DNA of 34,108 bases from Candidatus Nealsoniibacteriota bacterium (GTDB taxonomy: Bacteria; Patescibacteriota; Minisyncoccia; Minisyncoccales; PWPS01): assembly GCA_003553505.1 (NCBI GenBank), contig PWEN01000050.1:1-34108 (forward strand). The letters are read 5' to 3'. A program made the position numbers and the translations under genes. Position 1 is the first letter of the stretch. Every line of letters starts with the position of its first letter. The notes under the pieces were generated by a model. It saw only the letters and a program-made list of their open reading frames with translations. It made no database searches and had not been told where the DNA came from. This document shows positions 114 through 30,152 of the stretch, one piece after another.

Positions 114-188
114 CTGTACAAGGAGATTGGTTTTAGCTGAAAAATTATAACAGAAAAGGTCGATTAAAAATATAATTAAAAAATAATT

Positions 189-710
189 ATGAAAAAATTT
201 CTTTATATATTAGGTGGCTTAATTCTTGTAATTGTTATTATTGCTGCAATTGGTGGAGATCCCGAAGAAGAATCTGTGGCTGATGATCCGACGGAGACAG
301 AAGAAGGGGTCTTAGAAGATGAAATATTTGAAGTTGGTGATTCTATAGATCATGAGAATAGAATACTTACGGTTGATTCTGTGGAAAGAGGCTGGGTTAG
401 CCCCAATGAATTTGATACACCATCAGAAGGAGAGGCGTATGTTCTTGTTGAGCTTACTCTACAAAATGAAAGCGAAGAAGAGGTGAGTTTTAATCCTCTG
501 CACTTCGAGCTAAAAGATGGAGGAGGAGTAATTCAAAACTATGGTGCAATGGTGACAGGAGTTGATACTCTCTCAAGTGGGGGGTTGGCACCTGGAGGGG
601 AAATTTCAGGAAATTTGGTTTTTGAGGTAAATGAAAATAACCTGGAAGAGCTTACACTTTTTTATGAGCCTGGTTTTTGGGGTGATGATAGAGTAGAGGT
701 GGAGTTGTAA
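189..710 (+). CDS. Membrane-anchored DUF4352-like secreted protein
   Basis: N-terminal TM, acidic linker, then a GDSIDHENRILTVDSVE...EGEAYVLVELTLQNESEEEVSFNPLHFELKD...GGEISGNLVFEV pattern like DUF4352 immunoglobulin-like proteins. Confidence 0.7.
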   Translation: MKKFLYILGGLILVIVIIAAIGGDPEEESVADDPTETEEGVLEDEIFEVGDSIDHENRILTVDSVERGWVSPNEFDTPSEGEAYVLVELTLQNESEEEVSFNPLHFELKDGGGVIQNYGAMVTGVDTLSSGGLAPGGEISGNLVFEVNENNLEELTLFYEPGFWGDDRVEVEL

Positions 711-3846: not shown

Positions 3847-5070
3847 ATGTCTGGCAATCAGTACAAAGAGGAAGTGATAGATCCTGGAGTTAAAGCTTCG
3901 ATGTTGGCAAAAGAGGTTTGCTTTCAAAGTCATGCGAACTGCCCGGCAGTAAGCGTTATTGCCCATCAACCCGGGAAATTTCGGGGCCCCGTTGGGTATC
4001 TCTGGAAAAAACACATTCTCGAGGAGATGGTGCAGGGAGCTGAAAATCCGGAAAAGTCATGGTCTTTGCTTGAAGAAGTGGAGAACGATGGAGCTGGCGG
4101 AAAACCCCAGTTTTTCACTTTGCTCGGAGATCCTTATGTGAATCGTGGTCTTGGCTGGGAGATAATAACCATGGCTGCGGATGATTTTAGCAGATCAGGA
4201 AGATTTCCGGCCATCATAGCCAATGAAATGAATGTCAAGAAAATCAACGAGGATAATTTTCATTTATTTCAAGCAATCATGGAGGGGTACGGAGAAGCTC
4301 TAAAGGAAGCCCGGCTGGTAAACATCACTGGCGAAATTGCAATAATGAAGCACAGCATAACTGCCTTTTGTGATATAAACTTTATCGAAGGGCAGCTTGT
4401 GTTAACCTGGGGCGCTACTTGCATCGGTTTATCTCGCAAGGAAATGTTGATTGATGGCTCTGACATTGGCCCCGGAATGTCGATCATCGGTTTCTGGGAG
4501 CCGGGGTACAGGTGTAATGGAGGCACTTTCTTTACAAACATTATCTTAGAGAAGTGGGGATCTCCCTTTTCTCGCTCTTTTTGGGAAAGCAAAGAAATGC
4601 TTGATTTTGTCAGAAAACTTACAGTGCCTTCTCAAAGTTATGCCAAAACCATAACTCGCCTTATTGGATGGAATTCGGACGGGAGTGCCGGGAGTCCATT
4701 GGCTTCTATTGCCGGAATTGCCCACATAACCGGTGGAGGTGTTTGGGAAAAGCTTGGCGAAATACTTCCTCAGGGAGTCGGAGCCAATCTTTATTCTATG
4801 CCTGAGCCGGCGGATGTTTTGCTTGAAGGGCAAAAGCTTTCCTGGAATACGAAGTTTCATTTATCTGACTGGAATGCTTACAGCACCTTGCACGGGGGTT
4901 GTGGAGCACTGCTTATTTGTCAGCCATCAGATGAACAGAAGGTCATCAAGGAAGCGAAGAAGGATGGCATAAAAGCCTCTGTTGTGGGAGAAACAACTAA
5001 GGACAATGAGATAATCATCAATTCTCGTTTTAAGGAAAGAAGGACGCTGTCCTCAAAAAAACCTGAGTAA
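3847..5070 (+). CDS. PurM/AIR synthase-like protein
   Basis: VNITGEIAIMKHS (GGETAEMPG-like) and RKEMLIDGSDIGPGMSIIGFWEPGYRCNGGTFFTNIIL (PurM-like); strong SD aaggagggtgttATG. Confidence 0.75.
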   Translation: MSGNQYKEEVIDPGVKASMLAKEVCFQSHANCPAVSVIAHQPGKFRGPVGYLWKKHILEEMVQGAENPEKSWSLLEEVENDGAGGKPQFFTLLGDPYVNRGLGWEIITMAADDFSRSGRFPAIIANEMNVKKINEDNFHLFQAIMEGYGEALKEARLVNITGEIAIMKHSITAFCDINFIEGQLVLTWGATCIGLSRKEMLIDGSDIGPGMSIIGFWEPGYRCNGGTFFTNIILEKWGSPFSRSFWESKEMLDFVRKLTVPSQSYAKTITRLIGWNSDGSAGSPLASIAGIAHITGGGVWEKLGEILPQGVGANLYSMPEPADVLLEGQKLSWNTKFHLSDWNAYSTLHGGCGALLICQPSDEQKVIKEAKKDGIKASVVGETTKDNEIIINSRFKERRTLSSKKPE

Positions 5071-8155: not shown

Positions 8156-8252
8156 TACACGCAGAGAAAAGTAATGATTGGTTTCGGTCCCGTCTATACG
8201 GGATATGGAAACAGTAGGAAAGGTCGATTAAAATAGGATTGTACGATAAAAA

Positions 8253-8582
8253 ATGACAAAGGAAACATCTGACAAAGAGTTTCTTGAGTTCATCGTAAAG
8301 AACCTTGTAGACAATCCTGATTCCGTAGAAGTCGAGAGAAAAGTTGACGAGATGGGAGTGCTCCTTTCTCTGAAAGTTCATCCCGACGACATGGGACAGA
8401 TTGTCGGAAAAGAAGGTTCTACAGCGAGAGCGATCAGGAATCTGGTTCGCATTATCGGCCTTAAGCATAAGGCGAGAGTAAACCTCAAGATAGTGGAACC
8501 GGAAGGTAGCAATTTTAGATCAAAAGGAAGTTCCTCCGAGGAAAAAAACACCAAAGAGGGACTTGATGACATAGAACTGTAA
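8253..8582 (+). CDS. khpA: KH-domain RNA-binding protein (KhpA/YlqC family)
   Basis: VHPDDMGQIVGKEGSTARAIRNLVRI, upstream of trmD as is common. Confidence 0.9.
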   Translation: MTKETSDKEFLEFIVKNLVDNPDSVEVERKVDEMGVLLSLKVHPDDMGQIVGKEGSTARAIRNLVRIIGLKHKARVNLKIVEPEGSNFRSKGSSSEEKNTKEGLDDIEL

Positions 8583-28802: not shown

Positions 28803-28830
28803 TTGACAAAATAACAAAATCGTGTAATAT
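28803..28830 (+). promoter_or_regulatory. hsp20 promoter
   Basis: TTGACA-N16-TAATAT directly after tRNA-Val. Confidence 0.7.
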
Positions 28831-28872
28831 TTAGGGTGAAAAGGTCGGATTAAAAACCAATCTTTTAAAACT

Positions 28873-29298
28873 ATGTCACTAATTCCATGGAAGCCATTTC
28901 AAGATGCCGACAAGTTCTTTGATGGTGATGAGGACTTCTTCTTTCCTGTTTTTCCAAAGAAGAAAACGGAGCCTGATATGGATATATACGAGACCGAGAA
29001 AGAGGTTGTGGCAGATGTAAACATCCCTAATGTTGACCCTGAAACGATAGAAGTCTCTGTTCAGGATAACGTACTTCATGTTTCTGGAGGGAAAGAAGAA
29101 AAAAAGGAAGAGAAAGACAAGGGTTACTGGAAGCGTGAGATTAGAAGCGGATCGTTTAGTCGTGCGGTAAGGGTTCCTTCTCCAGTTGAAGGCGATAAAG
29201 CAGAAGCGGTTTATGAGAACGGCATCTTAAAGGTAACCATACCCAAGAAAAAAGAGTTGGAAGAAGGAGAAGGGAAAGTGAAGGTGAAGATTAAGTAA
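28873..29298 (+). CDS. Hsp20/alpha-crystallin family small heat shock protein
   Basis: DIYETEKEVVADVNIPNVDPETIEVSVQDNVLHVSGG...RSGSFSRAVRVPSPVEGDKAEAVYENGILKVTIPKK. Confidence 0.95.
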   Translation: MSLIPWKPFQDADKFFDGDEDFFFPVFPKKKTEPDMDIYETEKEVVADVNIPNVDPETIEVSVQDNVLHVSGGKEEKKEEKDKGYWKREIRSGSFSRAVRVPSPVEGDKAEAVYENGILKVTIPKKKELEEGEGKVKVKIK

Positions 29299-29771: not shown

Positions 29772-30062
29772 TTACCATTCTTCACCTTCTTCCTCGTCGA
29801 TGTCTACATCAAGATCCTCGTCGAGATCGAGATCCTCATCATCGAGGTCCTCATCATCGAGGTCCTCATCATCGAGGTCCTCTTCTTCGTCTTCCTCTTC
29901 TTCATCTTTCATAGAGACGATCTCGTCGTCTCCTTCTTCGTCTTCCTCTTCTTCATCTTTTATTCCGACGATATCTTCTTCTTCGTTCTCCTCTTCTTCG
30001 CCCTCATCAAGTGCACCAAGGACGTCTCTTCTGAGGAGCTCTTCGTGGTCTAAAATGAACAT
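29772..30062 (-). CDS. Highly acidic low-complexity protein (D/E-rich repeats)
   Basis: MFILDHEELLRRDVLGALDEGEEEENEEEDIVGIKDEEEEDEEG...DLDDEDLDDEDLDDEDLDLDEDLD...EEW; own promoter, hairpin with SD, terminator. Confidence 0.75.
   Translation of the reverse strand: MFILDHEELLRRDVLGALDEGEEEENEEEDIVGIKDEEEEDEEGDDEIVSMKDEEEEDEEEDLDDEDLDDEDLDDEDLDLDEDLDVDIDEEEGEEW
29831..29880. repeat. 15-bp tandem repeat (gaggtcctcatcatc) encoding (DLDDE)n on the minus strand
   Basis: Three near-perfect tandem units visible. Confidence 0.85.
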
Positions 30063-30070
30063 ATTTTTTT

Positions 30071-30097
30071 CTCCTACTTTGTTTCGCAAAGAAGGAG
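30071..30097 (-). promoter_or_regulatory. Hairpin that includes the SD of the acidic protein gene
   Basis: Minus strand CTCCTtCTTTG-cgaaa-CAAAGtAGGAG, with AGGAG 8 nt before the ATG at 30062. Confidence 0.65.
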
Positions 30098-30152
30098 AGG
30101 TTAATTCACTTAACACCCTTACAAAGGTGTGTCGACCTTTTGCATAGCACCC

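Follow-up and report, generated by a model that had tools for sequence, protein, structure and literature searches.

The sequence AAAGGUC followed by G or, less often, A, which recurs in the 5′ leaders of many unrelated genes in one order of bacteria, is on balance probably an mRNA-level cis-element of translation initiation that is read by a protein linked to the small ribosomal subunit. In the leaders that carry it, it looks like a previously undescribed landing signal on the mRNA. The motif was noticed in a contig of 34,108 nucleotides (the window) that derives from an 810-kb genome with a completeness of 68%. The KhpA protein of the window matched Candidatus Nealsonbacteria with up to 83% identity, with Staskawiczbacteria next, and from the names of these relatives we take the genome to belong to the Paceibacteria (Parcubacteria).

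The copies of the motif in the window and the features around them are as follows.

155 to 162, plus strand: AAAGGTCG copy 1, followed by an A/T-rich spacer of 26 nt (163-188) and ATG at 189
189 to 710, plus strand: gene for a small, exported or anchored DUF4352-domain protein, downstream of AAAGGTCG copy 1
8219 to 8226, plus strand: AAAGGTCG copy 2, followed by a spacer of 26 nt (8227-8252) and ATG at 8253
8253 to 8582, plus strand: khpA, KH domain, KhpA/KhpB family (Pfam PF13083)
28803 to 28830, plus strand: promoter-like TTGACA (28803-28808) and TAATAT (28825-28830) 5′ of hsp20, read from the sequence
28840 to 28847, plus strand: AAAGGTCG copy 3, followed by a spacer of 25 nt (28848-28872) and ATG at 28873
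28873 to 29298, plus strand: hsp20, Hsp20/alpha-crystallin (Pfam PF00011)
30140 to 30133, minus strand: AAAGGTCG copy 4, 12 nt past TATAAT (30158-30153) and 70 nt away from ATG (30062-30060)
13257 (minus strand) and 32909 (plus strand): the remaining two exact copies of AAAGGTCG, both inside genes

The original prediction had proposed copies 1 to 3 upstream of unrelated genes, and both points were confirmed: the distances from AAAGGTCG to ATG are 26, 26 and 25 nt, and Pfam assigns the downstream genes to a DUF4352 protein, khpA and hsp20. The window total of six copies compares with 1.27 expected from shuffled sequence, and none of 100 shuffles reached six. Copy 3 begins 10 nt past the −10-like TAATAT of hsp20 and would therefore sit near the 5′ end of the hsp20 mRNA. 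The fourth copy had been listed as a partial one, and its 70 nt to the ATG of the acidic gene place it outside the shared spacing. Two hairpins are predicted between this copy and the ATG (30062-30140, minus strand) and leave approximately 22 nt unpaired, and an in-frame GTG is located 16 nt downstream of the copy.

The major data were obtained from eight genomes of the window's order, of which 1.36 Mb were sampled. This sample comprises 1,392 upstream regions, and the gene starts were assigned heuristically, by a simple ORF script that favours ATG. Compared with background, the motif was far above expectation: for the region from −46 to −14 of the 1,392 genes, dinucleotide content predicts 0.7 copies of AAAGGTCG and 1.2 of AAAGGTCA, whereas 31 and 12 were found. 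These ratios are inflated somewhat by the use of partial genome stretches picked partly for motif hits, and all statistics given here count related genomes as independent. Most other one-base variants were close to background, with AGAGGTCG (3 versus 0.2) and AAAGGTTG (4 versus 1.7) deviating most, and the motif is thus near-strict, AAAGGTC[G>A]. Of the 165 AAAGGTC[GA] sites in the 1.36 Mb, 53 had a start codon 12-50 nt downstream on their own strand; the reversed sequence had one at 2 of its 216 sites. Relative to the gene, the motif was in the sense orientation in 49 cases, antisense in 3 and reversed in 2; both of these controls come from the same stretches, yet neither had guided their choice. 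For nearly all copies, the end of the motif was 20-39 nt from the ATG. The spacing had been predicted to be fixed, and this was upheld only in part, since the distance to the start codon is restricted but forms a band and is not constant. The predicted lack of Shine-Dalgarno (SD) sites was borne out in that none of the 49 sense motif genes has one, although approximately two were expected by chance and this is weak evidence alone. The motif was carried by about 2-7% of the sampled genes per genome, a rough frequency in view of how the stretches were picked, and it is therefore deduced not to be the general start signal. Whole-genome counts of the pattern AAAGGTCGN{18,34}ATG gave a ratio of motif to reversed sequence of 1.70 in 60 genomes of the window's order and 1.67 in 15 from the class's other orders; for the 50 genomes listed first among other classes it was 0.57. 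The first two ratios indicate that the signal is not restricted to the window's order and reaches parts of the class.

The motif is also conserved in the leaders of orthologous genes. For khpA, AAAGGTC[GA] was present 15-45 nt before the ATG in 40 of 80 loci from named genomes and slightly further away in several more. In five khpA leaders (L279, L281, L282, L290 and L304), the motif is flanked by repeats of the type AGTAGC...GCTACT (or GGGTAGC...CTACCC), which could form a hairpin with the motif in its loop but are not significant overall. A conserved hairpin was rejected as a general feature, with 25 stems of at least 6 observed for khpA against 16.7 expected and 27 against 21.7 for all motif leaders. 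For groES, a simple pattern count found the motif in 12 of 29 scored leaders, and a few further leaders were seen by eye to have close variants or copies just outside the band. In several genomes the groES motif fills the spacer of CIRCE (TTAGCACTC-AAAGGTCGT-AACTGCTAA), and in the leaders L195, L204 and L206 the AAAGGTC element lies exactly in the 9-nt spacer (GGAGGTCG in L195), while in the window's family it directly follows CIRCE. The distance to the ATG was approximately 23-32 nt in both arrangements; judged from these leaders, it is the operator that shifts relative to the motif, and the distance from motif to start that stays. An Hsp20-like gene from another family (L041) also has the motif, at 31 nt from its ATG. 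Rfam covariance models gave no cis-regulatory family above the cut-off for the window and the khpA and groES loci, the only matches above it being tRNA, rRNA and a group I intron.

The genes that carry the motif form a mixed set, including groES, hsp20, khpA, genes for exported or membrane proteins, and HU-, pilin-, rubrerythrin- and LemA-like sequences, these names being assigned from reading the N-termini. A strongly hydrophobic N terminus was found for 27 of the 49 motif genes compared to 323 of 1,384 others (23%; Fisher p = 3.5e-6), and the motif proteins were shorter (median of 155 versus 213 aa). The motif leaders had A at −3 in 76% of cases versus 49% and A at −6 in 67% versus 46%, and the G content from −22 to −1 was 7% versus 15%. 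Folding around the start was weaker than in other genes, the difference being small when AT-matched genes were compared (−1.75 versus −2.10 kcal/mol). In Flavobacterium and E. coli, A at −3 and A at −6 raise initiation (PMC6847099).

A sense-oriented word at a restricted distance from the start codon and independent of promoter position is what is expected of a translation-initiation cis-element, and initiation would most simply account for the distance to the ATG together with the start context, with a regulatory-protein site or a stability tag as further possible readings. In the proposed mechanism, the motif would sit 20-39 nt ahead of the AUG in the 5′ leader, which is where, with the AUG in the P site, the mRNA is presumed to emerge from the platform side of the 30S subunit. 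A reader, which may be a small-subunit component or an associated protein (a bS1-like protein, KhpA or another KH protein, or something else), would bind the motif and so recruit the mRNA, after which the A/U-rich, unstructured spacer would bring the start codon into place on the ribosome. The system would serve a lineage that is devoid of an anti-SD sequence and would mark a few per cent of genes, typically small, often encoding exported proteins or chaperones, and otherwise endowed with strong start contexts. The action on translation, the protein nature of the reader, its association with the ribosome and a high expression of the motif genes are what we infer from these sequence features. 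With regard to the reader, a bS1-like protein matching approximately 340 positions of the rpsA model was found in most relatives searched, whereas the match to bS21 was weak or missing in many of them. KhpA is considered a candidate on two grounds alone, the RNA binding of its family and the motif in the khpA leader. Speaking against the initiation reading are the small share of genes with the motif, its loose link to anti-SD loss across the class, a spacing band looser than that of the SD sequence, and the many motifs that would begin only a few nt from the predicted 5′ end of the mRNA, which would fit a stability tag too.

The composition of the gene set also bears on a possible, if somewhat unlikely, explanation in which AAAGGUCG is not a positive start signal but is recognized by an RNA-binding regulator (KhpA/KhpB-like or other) that turns certain mRNAs down or up, for example those of chaperone and envelope genes. 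The low proportion of genes with the motif, the inclusion of groES and hsp20, the excess of hydrophobic N termini and the widespread presence of the motif before khpA itself are all consistent with such a post-transcriptional regulon. However, the set is mixed, the motif leaders have the features of strong starts, and a site approximately 26 nt upstream lies outside the stretch from which a bound protein would usually obstruct the ribosome.

The frequent start of the motif a few nt past the expected transcription start could also indicate a 5′-end tag for mRNA stability, bound by a protein or by the 30S subunit and guarding against a 5′ exonuclease, a role for which the stab-SD of Bacillus is a parallel. 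This was deemed unlikely, as operon-internal copies that overlap stop codons hold a similar distance to the ATG, which a stability tag need not do. Nine copies overlap the upstream gene call, some of them at its stop codon, and are 22-46 nt from the next start.

The position of many copies shortly downstream of −10-like boxes, and of the groES motif within CIRCE, the operator of HrcA, would equally suit an element acting on the DNA, such as a promoter extension, an initially transcribed sequence or an operator. Between the −10-like hexamer and the motif lie anywhere from 2 to more than 30 nt, from which it was concluded that the promoter does not set the position of the motif; a fixed promoter spacing was rejected on the same ground, and no fixed position relative to −10/−35 or the transcription start was seen. 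Since copies also occur inside upstream gene ends and the site is non-palindromic with a strict orientation and a restricted distance to the ATG, a DNA-level role is regarded as very unlikely. The RNA-level nature of the element, as originally predicted, is well supported by the sequence comparisons, namely, the enrichment, orientation, spacing to the ATG, operon-internal copies and conservation among orthologs, while the constant spacing that had been part of that argument gives way to the restricted band.

The readable 16S 3′ tails of the order were GTGGATCATTAAATTTT- or GTGGAACACTTAAAC-like, and CCUCC was present in none of them, these tails amounting to 19 output lines, some of which are one gene repeated. 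A search of the window's own genome (68% complete) found no recognizable 16S gene, and its loss of the anti-SD is inferred from the 16S of relatives, including two of the same family. On the basis of these relatives, the motif does not complement the 16S 3′ end, and at 20-39 nt it is beyond the 5-10 nt that separate an SD sequence from the start codon. The hexamer CGACCT is present in one 16S helix in most genomes of the order. As a candidate for pairing it was rejected, being missing from the 16S L083 although the corresponding genome, G025, has 17 motif matches; GACCTT (6 nt) near position 1355 of the G030 16S was rejected as not conserved. No conserved 7-nt complement of the motif, wobble included, was found in complete 16S genes of the order, none was found in the 23S, 5S and three tRNAs checked in G030, and no recurring intergenic complement was seen in the stretches examined. 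The suggestion of an sRNA site accordingly found no support in the rRNA and intergenic stretches covered. Despite the short, nearly invariant form of the word and the CGACCT helix, base pairing to 16S rRNA or another RNA, whether SD-like or by an sRNA, is hardly credible given the absence of any conserved partner in these searches. As a separate observation, the G030 23S rRNA (L141:10394-10401) holds AAAGGTCG in the sense direction.

Several genomes from other orders of the class also have no anti-SD, and others retain GGATCACCTCCTTTCT. Loss in other orders was observed for L115, L120, L123, L124, L128, L135, L136 and L138 and further for L230, L232-L235, L237 and L238, with a perfect CCTCC in other families. 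Small samples from some of the other orders without anti-SD had few or no copies of the motif, indicating that loss and motif are not tightly linked. We tentatively suggest that, after loss of the anti-SD, the lineage may have evolved AAAGGUCG, approximately 26 nt upstream of the AUG, as a distal recruitment word read by a ribosome-associated protein and not by rRNA. About 5% of the genes in these genomes keep an SD of the AAAGGAGG type, though the 16S of relatives is without anti-SD; examples are at 3847, 7085 and 5709 (minus strand) in the window and in L070, L079, L080 and L144. In the window's genome these sites are mostly 4-9 nt before the start. Many such genes are in accessory-looking clusters, represented in the window by an AIR-synthase-like gene and one for diaminopimelate dehydrogenase, and horizontal transfer or binning contamination can be guessed at as their source.

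An order of reduced-genome bacteria without anti-SD has a sharply defined leader word, constrained in orientation and distance, on a defined set of genes. This bears on how start codons are chosen in bacteria without SD pairing and opens an SD-independent signal to testing. The annotation of start codons in such genomes could benefit as well, and the word would be relevant to the expression of genes taken from uncultured bacteria. No earlier description of AAAGGTCG as a word was found in the open-access literature searched. Loss of the anti-SD in CPR/Patescibacteria was not described among the open-access matches examined, and the CPR-ribosome literature may contain such a description; in two surveys of anti-SD-less prokaryotes, the terms related to Patescibacteria that were looked for are absent from the main text.

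Among known systems, the motif resembles the bS1-dependent A/U-rich enhancers in its place upstream of the AUG, its A/U-rich surroundings and the possible binding of a platform protein, but it is sequence specific and contains GC. The stab-SD and other 5′ mRNA stabilizers of Firmicutes rely on the anti-SD; the motif is similarly near the mRNA 5′ end and far from the AUG, whereas the 16S of the order does not have the anti-SD that they require. The SD sequence is likewise a short purine-rich mRNA word upstream of start codons, and the motif shares AAAGG with AAAGGAGG. It differs in its distance of 20-39 nt compared to about 5-9 nt for the SD, in the continuation of AAAGG with UCG and not AGG, and in a lineage whose 16S has neither an anti-SD nor a conserved complement. 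The Kozak-like context with A(−3) and A(−6) in Bacteroidetes and others has in common with the motif leaders the A-3, the A-6, an unstructured A-rich region and the absence of SD, but, as described in the accessible part of that paper, consists of single-base preferences near the AUG, with no distal word (PMC6847099).
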